DNA of 64,000 bases from Halobellus rarus (GCF_024494595.1 NZ_JANHDI010000002.1:248001-312000); one strand, 5' to 3'; positions 52,377-61,032 are shown, numbered from the stretch's first letter. Numbers and translations: made by a program. Notes: generated by a model not told the origin, from the sequence alone.

Positions 52377-53594
52377 TCACTCGGTCGACTCGGCGTCACC
52401 CGTCGGTTCTGGCCCGTTGGCGTGAGAATCGGGGGCGTCTCCATCGCCGGAGTCGCCCGTTCGTGCGTCGGCACCGGACTCCGATGCGGGTCCGACTCCA
52501 TCGTCGGGAGCGCCGTTCGCGGGGGACGGCGGCTGGTACGTGTACAGGAGGTCACCCGTCACGGCGTAGAACGCACCCGACTGCGGATCTTCGACGACGC
52601 CGGTGTCGTTGTCGATCGCGAAGTCGACGAGGTCTCGGAGACTCGACGCCTCCGCTCGCGGGCGCTCGAACACCGAGTCGGGGAGCCGGATCTGCGTGAT
52701 CCACTCGGCGAACTCCGAGCGGTCGTCGCGGTAGGAGAGGTAGGCCTCTTCTTCGGGCGAAAGCGCGAGTCCGTCTTCGTTGCGCGCGTACAGCAGCGCG
52801 GCAGTTCCGGCTATCCCGAAGAGCAAGAGGACCGGGCCTCCGATCGACCGGAGCGGGCCGTAACTCCGTTCGGTGGTGACCTCTTCGGTCCGCTCGGGGC
52901 CCGACGACTGGAGCCCCGGTTCCGAGACGGAGTACGTGCCGTCGCCGTGATCGACGGTCATCTCGACTGTTCGCGTGTACGACGTCGACTCGCCGTCGAA
53001 CGTCCCGTTAACCGCGACGTCCGAGACGACGACCATCTCGGTCGTTCCGGGCGACGCGCCGAGTTCCTCCTCGATCGACGCCGCGGTCGCGTCGATCGCC
53101 GAACTGTTGATCACGAACGACGCCGCCACGGTCTCGCCGGATTCGACCCCCGAGAACTGCTCGCTCGCCAGCGGTTCGCGCTCGCTCCAGTAGACCACCT
53201 CGTCGTCCTCGCCCACGTTGCGGATGACGAGTTCGGACTCCACGACGACGTCGACGTCGCTGGCGGAGGCCGCAGTGTACCGCGTCTCGACGCCGACGTC
53301 GAGTTCCGGAGCGATCTGCGTGAAGTACGTGTTCCGGCCGTCCAGAACCGTCCCGGTCTCGAACACGGGGTTCGGTTCGGTCACCTCCGCGGCGTGGACG
53401 TACTCGGTTTCGACGGTGAGCGGAGAGACCGTCCGCGTCTGCGTCTCGGTCCCGGGATCGACGTGCGTCGTGTACACCAGCCCGGCACCGACCGCGGCGG
53501 CGAGGAGACACGCGACGACGATCACGGTGAACTGTGCGTGCAGTATCGCCCGAAGGCGAAGCCGGGTTTCGCTGGGTTGTGTCGTGGCGTTCAT
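52377..53594 (-). CDS. DUF5305-type membrane protein
   Basis: A 405-residue protein anchored at both ends of an exported domain. A membrane segment (FTVIVVACLLAAAVGAGLVYTT, about residues 22-43) leads into a beta-rich extracytoplasmic domain (VSPLTVETEYVHAAEVTEPNPVFETGTVLDGRNTYFTQIAPELDVGVET; then NVGEDDEVVYWSEREPLASEQFSG). A second segment (IGGPVLLLFGIAGTAALLYA) and a cytoplasmic tail with acidic low complexity follow. This matches my memory of DUF5305, often encoded next to SipW-like signal peptidases in haloarchaea. It begins 4 bp after the signal peptidase stop, so the pair is an operon. It may be a peptidase partner or scaffold. Confidence 0.75.
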   Translation of the reverse strand: MNATTQPSETRLRLRAILHAQFTVIVVACLLAAAVGAGLVYTTHVDPGTETQTRTVSPLTVETEYVHAAEVTEPNPVFETGTVLDGRNTYFTQIAPELDVGVETRYTAASASDVDVVVESELVIRNVGEDDEVVYWSEREPLASEQFSGVESGETVAASFVINSSAIDATAASIEEELGASPGTTEMVVVSDVAVNGTFDGESTSYTRTVEMTVDHGDGTYSVSEPGLQSSGPERTEEVTTERSYGPLRSIGGPVLLLFGIAGTAALLYARNEDGLALSPEEEAYLSYRDDRSEFAEWITQIRLPDSVFERPRAEASSLRDLVDFAIDNDTGVVEDPQSGAFYAVTGDLLYTYQPPSPANGAPDDGVGPASESGADARTGDSGDGDAPDSHANGPEPTGDAESTE

Positions 53595-53598
53595 TCAG

Positions 53599-54762
53599 TC
53601 ACCTGTAGAGTTCACGGAGGAGACGGCGGTGCAGCGAGGGTTTCGCGCGCGATTCGCGGGACCGGATTCGCGCGGGCTCGCCGCGGAAGAGGACCAACCC
53701 GAGCGCGACGATGCCGCCGCCCAGCAGTCCGTTGATCGCGAGCAGCGGCGCCCACGGGTGAACGCCGTAGAGTTCGTCGATCACGCTGAGCGGCAGGATC
53801 GCGAGATAGCGGTGCTCGGTGACGAACAGCCGGTAGTAGCCGGTCTCCTCGGGGGCCGACAGCGTCACCGTGGTCGTCGCCTCGCCGCGGCTCCCGACGG
53901 AGACCCGCTGGGGTTCGACGTCGACGCCCGGGCTCGACGGCGTGACGTACGCGTGCACCGGAACGAGCCCGGCGTTGGGGACGACGTACTCGATCTCTTG
54001 GCTCGTGCCGCGCTCGATGACCGTCGGGTTCTCCGACTCGAACTCGGCACTCACGATTCCGTACTCCTGTGTCCCCCCGGGGACGACCATCGCGGCGGTC
54101 GCCGTCGCCATCAGCACGAGCGCTAAGACGAGCACGATCGCGAACACCGACGTGCCGTCGTCGCGCGAGCGGTCGCGTTCGGGCCGATCGCGGCTCCCCT
54201 GGTCGAGGTACCAGTCGACCCCATCCGCGACCACCGAGAGGCCGAGGAGAATGTACGCGATCCCCTGCGTTCCCTGGAACGATCGAACGCCGAACGAGAC
54301 CGCGAGCCACGTCTGAAGCGATTCGAGCGCGGACTGAAAGCCCATCGCGAGGGTCCCCAGATGCGGGATGACGACGACGCTCCCGCCGACGCTGAGCGCC
54401 TTCGCGACGATTTCGGCGTCCTGGACGACCGGTTCCCCGCCGTCCTGATCGGTGAACGGGTTGTTGTCGCCCTGGGTGATGTACCCGCGTTCGGTCTCCT
54501 CGACGACGCGGTGGGTCGTCAGTCCGCCGCCCTGTATCTCCTGGGCCTCGAACGTCACCACGTCGCCGGGGGCGATGTCGCCCGCGATCGCCGTCGGGAT
54601 GGCGATGAACCCGTCGCCGGGGTCGAGTGTCGGTTGCATGCTTCCCGTCTCCACGAAACTGAGGAGTATCGGCTGCCCGAGGAACTGCCCGACGATCAAC
54701 GAGAGGATCACGACCACCGCGATCACCTGCAGCGTCACGGAGAGGGTTCGTTTGATAGACAT
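53599..54762 (-). CDS. SipW/ER-type signal peptidase I with C-terminal membrane and beta domains
   Basis: A 387-residue peptidase. A first membrane helix (8-34) leads into FVETGSMQPTLDPGD with catalytic Ser41. The general base is His84 in TTHRVV, which replaces the bacterial Lys, and Asp99 lies in TQGDNNPFTDQDGG. This Ser-His-Asp set is typical of SipW/archaeal/ER signal peptidases. After a second hydrophobic region (about 122-170), a third helix leads into a beta-sandwich-like domain (IVSAEFESENPTVIERGTSQEIEYVVPNAGLVPVHAYV) and a final helix. The long C-terminal half is unlike ordinary archaeal SPase and may bind substrates. It precedes DUF5305 by 4 bp. Confidence 0.9.
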   Translation of the reverse strand: MSIKRTLSVTLQVIAVVVILSLIVGQFLGQPILLSFVETGSMQPTLDPGDGFIAIPTAIAGDIAPGDVVTFEAQEIQGGGLTTHRVVEETERGYITQGDNNPFTDQDGGEPVVQDAEIVAKALSVGGSVVVIPHLGTLAMGFQSALESLQTWLAVSFGVRSFQGTQGIAYILLGLSVVADGVDWYLDQGSRDRPERDRSRDDGTSVFAIVLVLALVLMATATAAMVVPGGTQEYGIVSAEFESENPTVIERGTSQEIEYVVPNAGLVPVHAYVTPSSPGVDVEPQRVSVGSRGEATTTVTLSAPEETGYYRLFVTEHRYLAILPLSVIDELYGVHPWAPLLAINGLLGGGIVALGLVLFRGEPARIRSRESRAKPSLHRRLLRELYR

Positions 54763-54847
54763 ATCGTATCTTACCGCGTCACCGCGAGCGTCGGTCGGAA
54801 CGTACGGACCGGATCTGACGACTCCGCTCCGAGAATGTCATTGATAC

Positions 54848-54855
54848 GTTATAAA
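54848..54855 (-). promoter_or_regulatory. TATA box of the signal peptidase-DUF5305 operon
   Basis: TTTATAAC on the minus strand lies 86-93 nt upstream of the signal peptidase ATG. It implies a leader of about 60 nt, longer than usual here, containing a short open frame from 54841. Confidence 0.45.
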
Positions 54856-54932
54856 TTCGTGGTTCGACGAAGTCCGCGGGTCGGTCACCGATCGGTCTCG
54901 ACGACTCCCGTGAGACAGCGGTTCCCGGGTGC

Positions 54933-55829
54933 TCACTCGTCGATTACGTCGCTCACGAGGAGGATGAAGGTGGCGATGAAGGCGAGACAGAAGCCGAGCA
55001 GGTGGACGTACAGGTTCACGACGCTCCCGCTGCCGGTCGGATCGGTCGGGAAGCCGACGACGGGATACCCGACGAGCAGGACCGCGCCGATCACGAGCAG
55101 GTCACCGTATCCCTCCTGCGACGTTACGGTCCGGATTCGCTCACGGACTGGCCGTCGAAGCCAATTGCCGGTGCGCAGCGCGTAGGCGACTCCAGTGACC
55201 AGACCGGTAGCGGCCACCCCGAACCCCGCGAGGCCGAGGTCGTCGGTCGAAACCGGTAGTGCCAGGAGCGTGATCCAGCCCGCGAGCAGGAAGAAGACGG
55301 CGGGCAGGGACCGCGACGACACCGCCGGGAAGAACCGATCACGAGCGTAGGCCCAGAGCAGCAGCGGGAGGAGCCCGGCCAACGCCATATTGATCCCCGA
55401 GAAGCCGAATCCAACGGCATTCCGCGGCACGGCCAGGTTCAGAGCGGACAGGACGAACGGGAACGCGAGCAGAAACGTCGCCAGCGCCGTGAGGAAAAAC
55501 CGCCGTTGGCCGCTCAGGACGGCGAGCGCGTAGCCGACGCTCGCGAGTAGCCCGTACCCCACCAGGTTCCCCGCGAGGTGGCCGGTCCCCAGGTGAACGT
55601 AATGCGCGGTGAAGGCGGTCCACGGCGTGGGGTCGGTGTAGGCGAACGCGAGCGACCGGCGGGTCGCCTCCGGGAGCGCGAAGACGGCCACGAGAACGGC
55701 CGGCACCGCGCAGAGGACGAACAGGTCGACCGCTCGGACGCGGGCGAGTAGCTCCTGCCGGAAGCCGTCGAGAGGAGGCTGCGCTCCCTCGTCGAGGGGG
55801 TCGCCCTCGCCGGACGGTACTGGCGTCAC
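54933..55829 (-). CDS. Rhomboid-family intramembrane serine protease
   Basis: A 298-residue polytopic protein. It has the rhomboid H-x3-N pattern at His84/Asn88 (GHLAGNLVGYG), the catalytic GFSG with Ser144, and the catalytic His276 in LYVHLLGF, which follows the H-x2-G form in the last core helix. The N-terminal 30 residues are acidic and cytoplasmic; six or seven membrane segments follow. It should cut membrane-anchored substrates within or near the membrane. It starts with GTG and lies between a large surface protein and the signal peptidase, all on the same strand, which suggests a shared export/processing role. Confidence 0.88.
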   Translation of the reverse strand: MTPVPSGEGDPLDEGAQPPLDGFRQELLARVRAVDLFVLCAVPAVLVAVFALPEATRRSLAFAYTDPTPWTAFTAHYVHLGTGHLAGNLVGYGLLASVGYALAVLSGQRRFFLTALATFLLAFPFVLSALNLAVPRNAVGFGFSGINMALAGLLPLLLWAYARDRFFPAVSSRSLPAVFFLLAGWITLLALPVSTDDLGLAGFGVAATGLVTGVAYALRTGNWLRRPVRERIRTVTSQEGYGDLLVIGAVLLVGYPVVGFPTDPTGSGSVVNLYVHLLGFCLAFIATFILLVSDVIDE

Positions 55830-55932
55830 GACTCCACCATCTCGCGCCCGCGGCTAACACCTGTCGCTCCGGTTCTCGCGAGCGAGAATCCGCGCTCGCG
55901 CCGCGGTCGCCCGAGGCCGGACCCCGTCGCGT

Positions 55933-57567
55933 TCACGACCGGGGCATCCGTCGGGCGAGTGCGACAAAGGCGACGGCGATCGCGACGAACAGCACCAGCC
56001 CGCCGAGTTCCACGAGGTCGATCCCGCTGGGCTCTAAGAGTGCCCCGGCCGAGCCGGCGTTCCCCTCAACGTCCGCCGCGGTCCCGGAGAGATCGTCCGC
56101 CGCGCTCGGGTTACCGTCCGCCGCCGGCGTGCCCGTCGCGTCCGCCCCGCCGACCGCCGCCGAGTCGTCCGGCGTGCCCGGGTCATCTTCCGTCGCTTCC
56201 GAGTCGACATCCGTCGCCGGGTTCTCGACGACCAGCCTCCCCGCGGACACGCCGTCGACGGCGAGCGCGATCTCGCCGCCCGTCTCGAACCGCCCGGTGA
56301 GGTCGACGGTCGTCGAGCCGTTGGGTTCGAGCGCGACCCGCTCGGTCGCCACCGCGGCTCCGTCGGCCGTGAGCGTGATCGACCGTTCGCCGCCCGCGCC
56401 GCCGCCGTTCTGGACGGTCGCCCGGACGGTGACTGTCTCGTTCGGCGCGGCGGTCGTCGCGTCGAGCGACGCGTCGGTGACGGTCAGGTGGGGGACCTCC
56501 TCGGCCACCGCGAAGGTGGAGAAGTCGTCGGTCCGCGCCCGGAAGTGGACGCGGTCCGCGGGGAGCCCCCGCTCGCGGGCGGTCTCGTCGCCGACGACCT
56601 CGGTGGGCAGCGCCTCCCAGGCGCCCGCGTCGGTCTGTCGGTAGAGGACCACGTTCTCGGGATCGACGCCAGAGCGGTCGAAGTAGCCCGAATCGGCGCT
56701 GAACCGCAGCGTCATCCCGTCGATCTCGTCGGGGTCGAAGTCGTACCGCAGCGAGAGGTACGCCAGCGACCGGGGCTCCGTGGGGGTGTCGAGCGCGCTC
56801 GCCCCGTCGAACGGATCGGGACTGCCGGCGGCGTTCAGTTCGAGGCTCCCGCCCGGCACGCCAGTCAGTTCGAGTCGGTCCATCGTGACGTTCCCGCCGT
56901 CGAGCGCCATCCGGTCGGCGTCGAATTCGACCGACTCGCCCGATCGAGCGCCGCTCGCGACGAACCGCCGCTCGTCGACGGCCGGCGACCTGACGGTCGT
57001 CGACAGCCCGCCGCCTCCCCCGCCCCCACCGAGCGACGACGGCGACGAGTCGGACACGTCCTCGGGCTCGGCGACCTCCGCGCGGATCGAGAAGTCGTCG
57101 GCACCGAGTTGGGTGCCCGCGACCTCCCCGCGCGTGTCGATCCGCAAGCCGACCGCGACGGTCTCGTTCGGCGCGAGCGTGACGTTGTTGGCCTCGCCCT
57201 CGACGGAGTCGCCGCCGCTGACGAACGTGACGGCCTCGCCCTCGTGTTCGATCCAGACCCGCGCGTACTCGTCGGCCGTGTACGTGATCGTGAAGACGCC
57301 CTCCGCCGAGGCGAGCGTCTCGGGGTTGACGCCCCTGAAGTCGGGATCGAGGTTCGGGTTGGTGGGAGAAACGTCGACGACTATCTCGTCGTCGTCGTTC
57401 AGGTACGCGTAGTCGCCGTTCGGCCCCTCCGCCGGCTGGACCGCGAGGCGGTCCTCGGCGAAGGTGTCTGTGGGGCCGTTGACCACCGCCGCGCCTGTGG
57501 TGAAGACGAGCGATCCTGTCGCTACGAGGAGTAAGGCGAGGATCGCGGTGCGGCGGTGGGACAACAT
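55933..57567 (-). CDS. Large surface protein: DUF1102-like, PGF-pre-PGF and CARDB domains, C-terminal anchor
   Basis: A 544-residue exported protein. A signal peptide (TAILALLLVATGSLVFTTGAAVV) is followed by a DUF1102-like beta domain (about 35-170: TFAEDRLAVQPAEGPNGDYAYLND, NVTLAPNETVAVGLRID). A Gly-rich hinge (GGGGGGGG) follows. Residues about 200-355 look like a PGF-pre-PGF domain (VVLYRQTDAGAWEALPTEVV, VHFRARTDDFSTFAVAE). A CARDB-like sandwich (LTVTDASLDATTAAPNETVTVRATVQN), a Ser/Thr/Ala/Asp spacer and a C-terminal helix with a basic stop (LVLFVAIAVAFVALARRMPR) complete it. The single anchor makes it a possible rhomboid substrate. A TATA box at 57584-57590 supports the ATG. Confidence 0.82.
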   Translation of the reverse strand: MLSHRRTAILALLLVATGSLVFTTGAAVVNGPTDTFAEDRLAVQPAEGPNGDYAYLNDDDEIVVDVSPTNPNLDPDFRGVNPETLASAEGVFTITYTADEYARVWIEHEGEAVTFVSGGDSVEGEANNVTLAPNETVAVGLRIDTRGEVAGTQLGADDFSIRAEVAEPEDVSDSSPSSLGGGGGGGGLSTTVRSPAVDERRFVASGARSGESVEFDADRMALDGGNVTMDRLELTGVPGGSLELNAAGSPDPFDGASALDTPTEPRSLAYLSLRYDFDPDEIDGMTLRFSADSGYFDRSGVDPENVVLYRQTDAGAWEALPTEVVGDETARERGLPADRVHFRARTDDFSTFAVAEEVPHLTVTDASLDATTAAPNETVTVRATVQNGGGAGGERSITLTADGAAVATERVALEPNGSTTVDLTGRFETGGEIALAVDGVSAGRLVVENPATDVDSEATEDDPGTPDDSAAVGGADATGTPAADGNPSAADDLSGTAADVEGNAGSAGALLEPSGIDLVELGGLVLFVAIAVAFVALARRMPRS

Positions 57568-57583
57568 CCGTGGCTCTGGCGGA

Positions 57584-57590
57584 GTTTATA
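57584..57590 (-). promoter_or_regulatory. TATA box of the large surface-protein gene
   Basis: TATAAAC on the minus strand, 17-23 nt before the ATG at 57567, near the leaderless spacing. Confidence 0.45.
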
Positions 57591-57724
57591 CTGGACGGAG
57601 TTTGGTTATGGTGTGCTTGAAGTTCCTGAAGGGGTCGCTTGATAAGAGAAATCGGTCGGAAGCAGCGAATTTATCCACAATGTTTTGATTTCACATATCA
57701 TTCCTGTCCGACGTTGAATGTGGA

Positions 57725-58288
57725 TTAGTCGCTTGCCGCGACGGCGTTGATTGTGAGCGTCACATCATACTCTATTTCCTGGACAGGGACTCCGTGTGTG
57801 TCAATTTCCAGCCCGCAGGGGAGCTGATTTCCGGTCGAAAGCGGCAGTGATGGACTGTCCTCTGTGAGAGTGCTCCCCGTCTCTACATCGTACATCGTCA
57901 CGTCGGGAACTCCGCTCGTTTCCGTCTGCGTGTTGTAAATCTGAACGGGTTGTGTGCCTCGATTCTCGACACTGAAGAGTCCAGACGTCCCATTTCTAGC
58001 GTCCTTGCCGAAGCGGTAGACTGAATCTGTGCCGAGGCCTTCTGGATCTGTGTGGCTGTACTCGTTTTCACTTGATCCAGGCAAATTAAAGGCCAATTTG
58101 TCGTTCTTCAAGATTGATCGACCGCCATTCCCGATTTCTTTCAATGACAGAACCGCTTCAGAATCGTTAGAAGTTTGGACGATTACTGAGCGTCTAGCAC
58201 TAAGGCTGGTGAAGGCCCCTGTTCCAAATATAAACGAGGAACTGAGGACACCTCCTAGCCCGATAACGAGATTCCGGCGGTTGATCAT
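57725..58288 (-). CDS. Secreted protein with SipW-type signal peptide
   Basis: A 187-residue exported protein beginning MINRRNLVIGLGGVLSSSFIFGTGAFTSLSARR. The GTGAFTSLSA segment after a short hydrophobic stretch is the cleavage-region pattern of haloarchaeal SipW-dependent (DUF1102-like) proteins. The mature part is beta-rich (SVIVQTSNDSEAVLSLKEIGNGG, LFSVENRGTQPVQIYNTQTE, VQEIEYDVTLTINAVAASD). The codons are visibly AT-richer than in the surrounding genes. It follows the next similar gene by 16 bp and is probably its operon partner, perhaps a minor fibre subunit. Confidence 0.8.
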   Translation of the reverse strand: MINRRNLVIGLGGVLSSSFIFGTGAFTSLSARRSVIVQTSNDSEAVLSLKEIGNGGRSILKNDKLAFNLPGSSENEYSHTDPEGLGTDSVYRFGKDARNGTSGLFSVENRGTQPVQIYNTQTETSGVPDVTMYDVETGSTLTEDSPSLPLSTGNQLPCGLEIDTHGVPVQEIEYDVTLTINAVAASD

Positions 58289-58304
58289 ACAGAGTTATTT
58301 CAGA

Positions 58305-59063
58305 TTACTCAGATTCTTCAGGAACTTCCTCCCCATTGTCTTCTTCTGGGGGAAGGTGTGGATCATCGTAACCGTAAATATCAAACTTCTCATCGTTTTC
58401 CGGAACGGTATCCCCATCTTCATAGCTACTTACAGCTTCAGCGACAATCGTGATATCCATATCAAGTTCTGAAAGGTCTCCAAGGTAACCACCAAATATC
58501 GCGCCGACATCCGGCATTGTGTTACCAACATCAACCCGGATCGCAGCTGGAACTGGGTGGTTTGGCAGACCAGACTTTTCCTGAGTATTCATAAGTCCGG
58601 TTCCACCCATCTGCTCATTGTAATAATCGTTTGCGGAGCCAGCTGCAAATGAAATGCCGTTTTCGTTGCCACTTCCGAGTTCTTTAGTTCCATCTCCATC
58701 AGGATCTTGCAACATATAAACAAATACGTCCTGAGTTCCTCGATTCGTAATATTGAATAATTCACCAATTACAGTTTGTGCATCAACATTAAGCCCTCCA
58801 ACGTTGCCAGAGTAAACCTCACTCATACTTTCGGCATGAGACCCATCAAATTGGAGCGACAAGGCATTACCCTCAGTGTTCACATACTTCGAATTTGGAC
58901 TGTTAGTCGGTTCAAGCGAGAGGAAAGCTGAGGCGTCGCCAGCAACATCAACATTAATCCCACGATTCGCACTCACACTCGTAAACGCGCCCGTACCCAT
59001 TGCAGCTGCACTACCCGTAGCCAATGCACCCAGACCGGCGATGAACTTGCGTCGACTTGTCAT
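58305..59063 (-). CDS. DUF1102-like secreted protein with SipW-type signal peptide
   Basis: A 252-residue exported protein beginning with MTSRRKFIAGLGALATG, then MGTGAFTSVSANRGINVDVAGDASAFLSLEP, the classic SipW/DUF1102 opening. The mature part alternates strands (QTVIGELFNITNRGTQDVFVYML; LDMDITIVAEAVSSY) and ends in an acidic tail of about 35 residues. Both RR near the N-terminus and the SipW pattern are present, so Tat export with SipW cleavage is possible. The gene is strikingly AT-rich against the window and uses codons such as ATA and AAT, which suggests recent transfer or variable surface evolution. It leads the 57725 gene. Confidence 0.82.
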   Translation of the reverse strand: MTSRRKFIAGLGALATGSAAAMGTGAFTSVSANRGINVDVAGDASAFLSLEPTNSPNSKYVNTEGNALSLQFDGSHAESMSEVYSGNVGGLNVDAQTVIGELFNITNRGTQDVFVYMLQDPDGDGTKELGSGNENGISFAAGSANDYYNEQMGGTGLMNTQEKSGLPNHPVPAAIRVDVGNTMPDVGAIFGGYLGDLSELDMDITIVAEAVSSYEDGDTVPENDEKFDIYGYDDPHLPPEEDNGEEVPEESE

Positions 59064-59523
59064 AGTTGGTCTACCTCGTGTACCGCACGCGACCCGCGGC
59101 CGCCGACGCGGAGACGTCCCGCGTCACCCCGGGTCGCTCTACTTCACCCATTGGCCCATACCCATATCGTAATGATTCGCCAGAAGTGATTCCGGGCGGG
59201 GCTGAAGATTTTCCGTCGCCGTTCTGCCCCGGTCTGAACCCCTCGACAGGCGCTTCAAGCCCGGCCTGAATCCGCTCAGAAGCGTTCACGGGCGGCTCGA
59301 TGTGCGAATCGTCGCTGAAATCTTACGGAACCTGGTACGAATTTGCGGTTCGCCGGCTGAGAGCCTCGTGACGACGACCGCGGTTGCGTCCACCGGACTG
59401 CTGTATGCCGGATCTCGGGCGCAAATACCCGTCTAAAGTCGTGATTTTCACGGTTTAGAACCTCTCATATCGGTATCACGATCGCGGGATTTATGTTGAT
59501 TGACTCATACTTGTCTGACACGA
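59064..59523. other. Intergenic region of 460 bp between divergent genes
   Basis: It separates the leftward DUF1102 gene from the rightward winged-helix gene and should hold both promoters. A TTTATGT box at 59490-59496 fits the rightward gene. No clear TATA box precedes the leftward gene. A 72-codon frame on the minus strand (59071-59289) has mixed third positions and no promoter, so I do not call it. Confidence 0.4.
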
Positions 59524-60099
59524 ATGGCGTCGGCACAACAGGTGGACGGGGGTGGTGAACCGGCGACAGAGCTCTCCGAGGACGAACTGTTCGACGTGCT
59601 CTCCAATCGACGGCGGCGCTTCGCGGTGCATCTGCTGAAGCACGAGGAGGAGACGATGGAGATCGGCGACATGGCCGAGCAGATCGCGGCGTGGGAGAAC
59701 GGCATCGACACGGCGGAGATCACCGGCGACGAGCGCAAGCGGGTGTACACGGCGCTCCAGCAGTCGCATCTACCGATGATGGACCGCGCGGGCGTCGTGG
59801 AGTTCAACAAGAGCCGCGGCGTCATCGAGCCGACGCCCGCCCTGGAGGACGTCGACCTCTACCTCGACGTCGTCGAGGGCCGGGAGGTTCCCTGGAGCGA
59901 GTACTACCTGGGCCTCTCGGCGGTCTCGGCGGCGCTCGTCGCGGCCGTGTGGATGGGCGCGTGGCCGTTCGTGCTGCTCCCCGATCTGGCGTGGACGCTG
60001 GCGATCGTCGTGGCCTTCGCGTTCTCGGCGGTCACGCACAAGTACTACACCGCCGAGATGAAGGTCGGCGAGCCCGAAGCGCCGCCGGAACTGCAGTGA
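59524..60099 (+). CDS. Winged-helix protein with C-terminal membrane segments (DUF7344-type)
   Basis: A 191-residue protein. Residues about 18-100 form a winged helix of the haloarchaeal DUF7344 kind: LSEDELFDVLSNRRRRFAVHLLKHEEETMEIGDMAEQIAAWENG, then ERKRVYTALQQSHLPMMDRAGVVEFNKSRGVIEPT. Two hydrophobic segments follow (about 125-145 and 150-168). It is probably a membrane-tethered transcription factor. It lies between the SipW-substrate genes and diverges from one group, so it may control them; this is inferred from position. The start is supported by a TATA-like box at 59490-59496. Confidence 0.82.
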   Translation: MASAQQVDGGGEPATELSEDELFDVLSNRRRRFAVHLLKHEEETMEIGDMAEQIAAWENGIDTAEITGDERKRVYTALQQSHLPMMDRAGVVEFNKSRGVIEPTPALEDVDLYLDVVEGREVPWSEYYLGLSAVSAALVAAVWMGAWPFVLLPDLAWTLAIVVAFAFSAVTHKYYTAEMKVGEPEAPPELQ

Positions 60100-60261
60100 A
60101 TCGCACGACTGGAACGGGACTATGCCACCGACCGACGGCCGTTCAGGCCCTCCGATACGGTCTTCAAGGAGTGCCAGACGGTGATTCCAACGGAGCATAA
60201 CCATATGCGTTCGCGGCGTACGGTCTGACAGTGCGGGGCGGGTTCGGAGACTTCCATTGAG

Positions 60262-61032
60262 ATGAAACGACGACACTTCATCCTACTGCTCGGTGGGGCG
60301 AGCTCGGGGGCGCTGGGCGTCGGAACCGGCGCGTTCAGCAGCGTCGACGCCGAACGCGGCGTGGAAGTGAACGTCGTCGAGGACGAGAATGCGTATCTGG
60401 GGCTACGAAACCTGAAAAAAACAGAAGCCGGGGATGACGAGGTTGTCCCTGAGAAAACGAGAACGAAAGTGGCGAGAATCACGAATCAGTTCGCTCAGCC
60501 GCTGGAACTCACGGTAACGGAAGTCTCTCGGGACGAGGTTGTTCAAGACATCGAAATAGAAGATCCGCTTGAAATCAGTGAAGACAGCGCAAACACGCTC
60601 GGAGTCGGAGAAGACGCACTCGTGTTCGTCAAGTGCGAGACTGACGAAACAAAACAGACTGAGTTCACGCTCTCTTTCGACGGTGACTCGGGCGGAGCTA
60701 CAGTCAGTAAACAACGGACGTTCGAGTTCACCTGCGGGAGCACCGACACCACCTGCGAGACCTGCGAGAGTGGTGGTACAGAACTCACGGTCACTGATGT
60801 GGAGTTCCTCAACAACGGGCACGTGGAGATTCAAGCGGACGAAAGTGGTGAAGTCTGCGCGAAGGCCTCCATCAGTCAGGGTGAAGGCGGTGAATCCCAG
60901 TGGACCTCGTACACTTCTGTACCCGTCGGCGAGGAACTCAAATCAAAACAGTTCTGCTGGGGCAATAATGGAGGCAAGATCCACGAGGTCGAAATCGAGG
61001 ACGGAGATACCTTCACAAGAGACGACAGCTGA
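60262..61032 (+). CDS. Cysteine-containing secreted protein with SipW-type signal peptide
   Basis: A 256-residue exported protein beginning with MKRRHFILLLGGASSGALG, then VGTGAFSSVDAERGVEVNVVEDENAYLGL, the SipW pattern. The first mature domain resembles DUF1102 strands (ITNQFAQPLELTVTEVSRDEVV; EFTLSFDGDSGGATV). A Cys cluster (TCGSTDTTCETCESGG) links it to a second short domain with two more cysteines (EVCAKAS, FCWGNN). Haloarchaeal secreted proteins are usually Cys-poor, so disulfides or metal binding are likely. It lies 162 bp after the winged-helix gene, on the same strand. Confidence 0.78.
   Translation: MKRRHFILLLGGASSGALGVGTGAFSSVDAERGVEVNVVEDENAYLGLRNLKKTEAGDDEVVPEKTRTKVARITNQFAQPLELTVTEVSRDEVVQDIEIEDPLEISEDSANTLGVGEDALVFVKCETDETKQTEFTLSFDGDSGGATVSKQRTFEFTCGSTDTTCETCESGGTELTVTDVEFLNNGHVEIQADESGEVCAKASISQGEGGESQWTSYTSVPVGEELKSKQFCWGNNGGKIHEVEIEDGDTFTRDDS

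Follow-up and report, generated by a model that had tools for sequence, protein, structure and literature searches.

For the Tafi pilus of Natrinema sp. J7-2, a structure was released in the PDB on 2025-07-23 (9P0A, 'Structure of Natrinema sp. J7-2 Tafi pilus'). A protein 100% identical to the mature 9P0A sequence was found to be encoded in one other genome, where the pilin gene heads a run on one strand, with genes for a TafF-like protein, a Taf-type signal peptidase and a DUF5305 protein coming after it in this order, while a DUF7344 gene and a gene in the TafC position run divergently. The subject of this paper is a locus of Halobellus rarus at positions 52377 to 61032 of a 64,000-nucleotide stretch (GCF_024494595.1 NZ_JANHDI010000002.1:248001-312000; this whole stretch is called the window), belonging to a haloarchaeal genome of 3.66 Mb in 25 contigs. 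On the basis of its parts, homology, gene order, catalytic residues and predicted pilin fold, all computed here, this locus very probably builds a Tafi-type archaeal pilus.

The same set of parts is known from the loci that pass the cut-offs of the NCBIfam Taf models, which comprise DUF5305, TafF, TafE, TafA, DUF7344, TafC and the peptidase. The order in the window is rearranged in comparison, and the TafF-like protein of the window differs in its tail and by PGF-pre-PGF and CARDB parts. In the Bacillus tapA-sipW-tasA system, a dedicated signal peptidase of the archaeal class adjoins the fibre protein and is thought to process it (PMC9674648). The window resembles this system in having such a peptidase beside a predicted fibre protein, but its peptidase and signals miss the SipW models, and genes for DUF5305, a TafF-like protein, a rhomboid protease and DUF7344 are additionally present. 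Donor-strand assembly has been shown for TasA and for thread fibres (PMC9674648, PMC9715654). A limited literature search gave nothing relevant on Taf/Tafi, DUF5305 or 9P0A.

A sequence-only reading of the window had proposed, within 8.7 kb, a dedicated production line for extracellular fibres or a coat. All of the genes it named were identified at the positions listed in the following sections.

The pilin family and its solved relative

Three secreted proteins are encoded in the locus, with expectation values (E) as follows:

57725 to 58288, minus strand: pilin-family protein E1, in the TafE position beside the TafF-like gene, predicted to be mature from Phe26; assigned by the TafE model (E 2.3e-12, below its cut-off), 9P0A (E 5.7e-4) and synteny.
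58305 to 59063, minus strand: pilin-family protein E2, the best candidate for the main pilin, predicted to be mature from Phe27 (58305-58985); assigned by 9P0A (E 1.6e-10), the family profile and the fold.
60262 to 61032, plus strand: pilin-family protein C1, in the TafC position, predicted to be mature from Phe25 (60334-61032); it may be a minor subunit or the tip, and was assigned by a profile link and synteny.

The NCBI models for Taf fimbrial proteins match all three proteins below their cut-offs, including the 60262 protein, for which the TafC and TafE models gave E 2.7e-9 and 4.3e-11, both sub-cut-off. With the signal removed, the 58305 protein resembled the Tafi pilin more closely than the other two did. 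A profile of the pilin family, constructed from 43 mature sequences without their signal peptides, was aligned with 9P0A over the whole length (profile positions 1-158 against chain residues 28-214, E 2.3e-21). The family of the 60262 protein joined the pilin family in a profile comparison (97% probability) that covered 62 columns at the start of the mature protein. From these comparisons, the three secreted proteins are assigned to one pilin family.

The mature 58305 protein was modelled with AlphaFold2 (mean predicted local distance difference test, pLDDT, 69; predicted template modelling score, pTM, 0.65), residues 1-8 being loose in the monomer model. When known folds were ranked against this model, 9P0A came first (VIA Z 9.4, 131 residues, root-mean-square deviation 2.9), followed by the Pyrobaculum calidifontis bundling pilus (7UEG, Z 7.9), the Sulfolobus thread (7PNB, Z 6.7) and FimA (Z 6.7). 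With 7UEG and 7PNB the predicted subunit fold is similar, and there is no significant sequence match. TasA was absent among the fold matches listed for this model, which excludes nothing, and related archaeal and Fim pilins were present there. Of the matches listed, those nearest to the 58305 model are archaeal pilus subunits, a group that the sequence-only reading had named, with TasA, for comparison.

Conserved neighbours, the TafF-like protein and the rhomboid

The remaining features of the locus are the following:

52377 to 53594, minus strand: DUF5305 membrane protein (PF17231, E 1.5e-55), proposed assembly or anchoring platform.
53599 to 54762, minus strand: Taf-type signal peptidase of 387 amino acids with Ser41, His84 and Asp99 (plus Asp105), above the TIGR02228 cut-off; proposed to process the pilin signal peptides.
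53758 to 54075, minus strand: extra outer domain of the peptidase (about residues 230-335) with the conserved motif E316-x-R318-Y319; the other two signal peptidases encoded in this genome do not have this domain.
54933 to 55829, minus strand: rhomboid intramembrane protease (PF01694) with Ser144 and His276; the TafF-like tail is its proposed substrate.
55933 to 57567, minus strand: TafF-like anchored protein carrying DUF1102, PGF-pre-PGF, CARDB and, at the C-terminus, a membrane helix; it may serve as the base or anchor of the pilus.
55936 to 56034, minus strand: C-terminal tail of the TafF-like protein, comprising EPSGIDLVELGG, a membrane helix and RRMPRS; candidate rhomboid substrate.
59064 to 59523, no strand: divergent intergenic region, where the promoters of both gene runs would be expected from its position.
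59524 to 60099, plus strand: DUF7344 winged-helix protein (PF24035, E 1.1e-29), for which 59524 is the best start; a membrane helix is predicted and a regulatory role proposed.

Along the minus strand, a gap of 16 bp (58305 to 57725) is followed by gaps of 157, 103, 170 and 4 bp, the last one separating the peptidase from DUF5305; because of these short gaps, the run is likely to be expressed as few transcripts. The DUF7344 gene (59524-60099) and the 60262 gene run in the opposite direction from the common 460-bp region.

In the genus, 20 loci centred on DUF5305 were surveyed, and the peptidase family was present within about 10 kb in 17 of them, pilin-like genes in 16 and DUF7344 in 14. All ten of the named relatives from Halorubrum, Haloplanus and Halobellus contained the peptidase, the TafF-like gene and the rhomboid. 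Among 52 loci with a window-type TafF-like gene, a sample that includes repeated genomes and related species and hence not independent events, TafF, rhomboid, peptidase and DUF5305 occurred in exactly this order in 38, and the rhomboid gene adjoined the TafF-like gene, directly 3' of it, in 41. In most loci, DUF7344 diverges from the TafF run. DUF5305 itself was identified in 91 of the 116 haloarchaeal genomes sampled and in none of 14 control genomes. The clustering of these genes is far above chance, and the pairing of peptidase, DUF5305 and rhomboid, for which a neighbourhood survey had been proposed together with the fibre reading, recurs in other genomes. In one genome (G022; L106, L076), a locus of the window type was accompanied by a Taf locus of the reference type, so that both forms coexist.

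The locus of the Natrinema Tafi pilin shares with the window a homologous pilin family and neighbouring genes in the same order. It differs in that a rhomboid is missing, only one pilin is encoded and a large DUF7289 protein is present, whereas the window contains the rhomboid and two pilins in the run. The DUF7289 protein (L145:10092-12686) is located between the pilin and DUF7344 in the Tafi-type locus and has no counterpart in the window.

For the TafF-like protein, the CARDB, DUF1102 and PGF-pre-PGF matches were each above cut-off, and the TafF model was matched with E 2.2e-11, which is sub-cut-off. Its tail, in which a short conserved motif precedes a membrane helix and arginines, fits a rhomboid substrate in its predicted features. 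The tail motif, defined post hoc, was identified in 37 of 40 loci with a rhomboid compared to 1 of 10 without (p 8e-7), the loci without a rhomboid belonging to few clades, which makes the effective sample small. The presence of any TafF tail helix showed no simple link with the rhomboid, and none of the known C-terminal sorting-signal models was matched above its cut-off by the TafF-like tails.

The rhomboid retains Ser144 of the GxSG motif in 49 and His276 in 48 of 50 sequences, both located in membrane helices. With PF01694, the protein taken alone scored slightly under the cut-off, which was exceeded when the whole genome was searched. An identity as rhombosortase was rejected, since the protein reached 23.5 bits with TIGR03902, for which the cut-off is 84, and the two other rhomboids of the genome reached 28.0 and 35.7 bits. 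That these generic rhomboids score equally high on the rhombosortase model, and that a rhomboid is missing from the Natrinema Tafi locus and from other loci, speaks for a passenger, namely a housekeeping enzyme which came into the operon by chance and does not act on the pilus. This explanation deserves to be taken seriously but is judged somewhat doubtful, because the place directly 3' of the TafF-like gene is kept in several families, the catalytic residues are conserved and the TafF tail is associated with the enzyme. The sequence-only reading had considered the rhomboid as a possible release protease, and such a role may be suggested, strengthened only by the conserved position and the post hoc association with the tail.

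A variable pilin slot and the case for a pilus

Across the relatives, 0, 1, 2 or 3 pilin-like genes are located between DUF7344 and the TafF-like gene, and this slot measured either 0.38-0.85 kb or 1.6-3.1 kb in the loci for which its gap was determined. The guanine-plus-cytosine (GC) fraction of the pilin genes deviates from that of their own locus by a median of -0.046, and by -0.17 for the 58305 gene; in the window, the pilin genes (57725-59063) have a GC of 0.47-0.52 compared to about 0.67 nearby. Slot variation and low GC would fit the replacement of pilin genes by one another at a constant position. A pilin-like gene may also be placed beyond the gene in the TafC position instead of in the slot, as seen in some genomes.

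In relatives, proteins in the pilin or TafC position were also found to carry LamG, ricin-B, beta-helix or bactofilin-like domains, with lectin-like or beta-helix fusions at L031:813-2072, L038:2932-4542, L072:12543-13682 and L080:12219-13031. Such domains in these positions fit an adhesive tip. The fusion of some pilin-position proteins to large LamG or beta-helix domains would also suit a surface coat or separate secreted and tethered proteins, in which the pilin-like proteins would remain monomeric or form a layer and be tethered by the TafF-like protein, and polymerisation is not proved by sequence and fold. A coat of this kind is nevertheless improbable, since one member of the family was observed as a pilus subunit in 9P0A, and its gene has the same neighbours.

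Several points weigh against the assignment as a Tafi-type pilus. The model of the 58305 protein is of moderate confidence (pLDDT 69), and a shared general arrangement may be all that a Z value below 8 indicates. The window proteins remain below the cut-offs of the Taf equivalogs, with 68.4 of 155 bits for TafE, 43.5 of 420 for TafF and 36.6 of 410 for TafC. Several relatives have no pilin genes in the slot, and the roles of main pilin, adapter and tip were assigned by position and weak similarity. Finally, for Halobellus rarus itself a Tafi pilus is a prediction from the genes.

The homology to 9P0A stands apart from the Z values, because the sequence match is independent of the fold scores. 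The solved Tafi pilin also falls below the cut-off (77.3 of 155 bits), which indicates that the cut-offs of the Taf equivalogs are narrow; since they are not reached, the names TafA to TafF are not strictly assigned here. Within the Tafi-type pilus, the 58305 protein would be the main pilin, the 57725 protein a second or adapter pilin and the 60262 protein a tip or minor subunit.

The production line for extracellular fibres proposed from the sequence is well supported by the homology of the pilin family to 9P0A, by 9P0A as the nearest predicted fold and by the matching gene order at the solved pilin. Neither of the computational outcomes named beforehand as speaking against it, folds unrelated to TasA or pilin jelly rolls and a lack of conserved co-occurrence in other genomes, was obtained. 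The earlier reading is right in substance, and the locus belongs to a pilus kind that is already known and was named recently.

The signal peptidase, DUF5305 and the proposed assembly

In the peptidase family, Ser41, His84, Asp99 and Asp105 are retained in 84, 85, 85 and 85 of 85 sequences. With this Ser-His-Asp set and a TIGR02228 score of 61.6 bits (cut-off 51.85), the 53599 protein belongs to the archaeal/Sec11 class of signal peptidases, and TIGR02228 has only three matches in the 3.66 Mb of the genome. A search of the PDB with the family profile identified Sec11A, and a PDB search with the single sequence gave no match. The enzyme is about twice as long as the Bacillus SipW model NF046067 (189 positions), with which it reached 32.5 bits, the cut-off being 190. 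Further membrane helices and the second outer domain follow beyond the catalytic part; in this domain, E316, R318 and Y319 are near-invariant though non-catalytic, being retained in 80, 84 and 84 of the 85 sequences. The family profile gave 640 bits for the window enzyme, and 424 and 358 bits for the Tafi-locus and Taf-locus enzymes, to which its similarity is full-length. The genome's other two signal peptidases reached 40 and 19 bits and aligned in the catalytic part only.

A classical SipW pair is encoded elsewhere in the same genome (contig C11:35128-38529; L010:212-2367), consisting of a 412-amino-acid protein above the cut-off of TIGR04088, the model for SipW-dependent signals, and then a 306-amino-acid signal peptidase. 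Because of this pair, the family-profile scores and the extra outer domain, the window enzyme is classed by its sequence as a separate, Taf-type peptidase and not as SipW proper. The earlier label 'SipW-type' holds only in the broad sense of the TIGR02228 class. Likewise, secreted proteins of the GTGAF type are present at 57725, 58305 and 60262, where GTGAFTS/S-type signals had been described, but none of the three matched TIGR04088 at E 0.05. A true SipW/TasA system, with the peptidase as SipW and the secreted proteins as TasA-like proteins of the Bacillus sort, would share the broad class of the peptidase and the similar logic of a dedicated enzyme with its fibre protein (PMC9674648), yet it is extremely unlikely in view of the SipW model score, of signals that miss TIGR04088 whereas the protein beside the shorter peptidase passes, and of an archaeal pilus as the closest solved structure.

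Two further pilin-like groups were identified in the same genome, on contigs C21 and C18 (L013:6649-8857 and L014:5784-9096). In both, a DUF7344 gene is accompanied by one that is TafC-like or similar. Neither has a signal peptidase of its own, for which reason they are probably served in trans by the 53599 enzyme.

The AlphaFold2 model of the DUF5305 protein is confident (pLDDT 86.8) and shows a long beta-sandwich on the outer side, a pair of membrane helices and a small domain in the cytoplasm. Its fold matches were generic beta-sandwiches only, the best being a glycosidase domain (Z 9.1), and are uninformative on function; comparison with PDB sequences gave none below E 0.7. DUF5305 and the peptidase were also compared as mutual relatives, and this was rejected. 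The constant pairing with the peptidase suggests that DUF5305 may serve as an assembly or anchoring platform.

For Halobellus rarus, we infer the course from export through cleavage, polymerisation and anchoring to release, and its regulation, as follows. The pilins would be exported, probably by the twin-arginine translocation (Tat) route, which is proposed because of their RR motifs; an RR-x-hydrophobic motif opens 59 of 87 sequences of the pilin family. The dedicated 53599 peptidase would cleave them at the GTGAF site, and polymerisation would come about by each subunit giving its N-terminal strand to the one that follows, in the manner of TasA, thread and bundling-pilus fibres. Anchoring of the pilus base may fall to the TafF-like protein, and DUF5305 together with the outer domain of the peptidase may retain subunits at the membrane or pass them on. 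The rhomboid may cut the TafF-like tail, and DUF7344 may control expression from the divergent region. A more far-reaching proposal joins two parts, the rhomboid and the TafF-like tail as a dedicated cutting pair that frees or fixes the base, like rhombosortase sorting in function though not in descent, and the peptidase outer domain with DUF5305 as a platform for donor-strand assembly without an usher; taken together, this is tentative and rather unlikely.

Through the relation to 9P0A, DUF5305, a signal peptidase of unusual length and a rhomboid are now linked to an experimentally solved type of archaeal pilus, and the form with the rhomboid is the common one among the loci with a TafF-like gene. 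Assembly of a pilus by strand exchange without a chaperone-usher pair, together with the anchoring and release of the fibre, would thereby become testable questions. The parts which merit new work are the pairing of rhomboid and tail, the outer domain of the peptidase and DUF5305.

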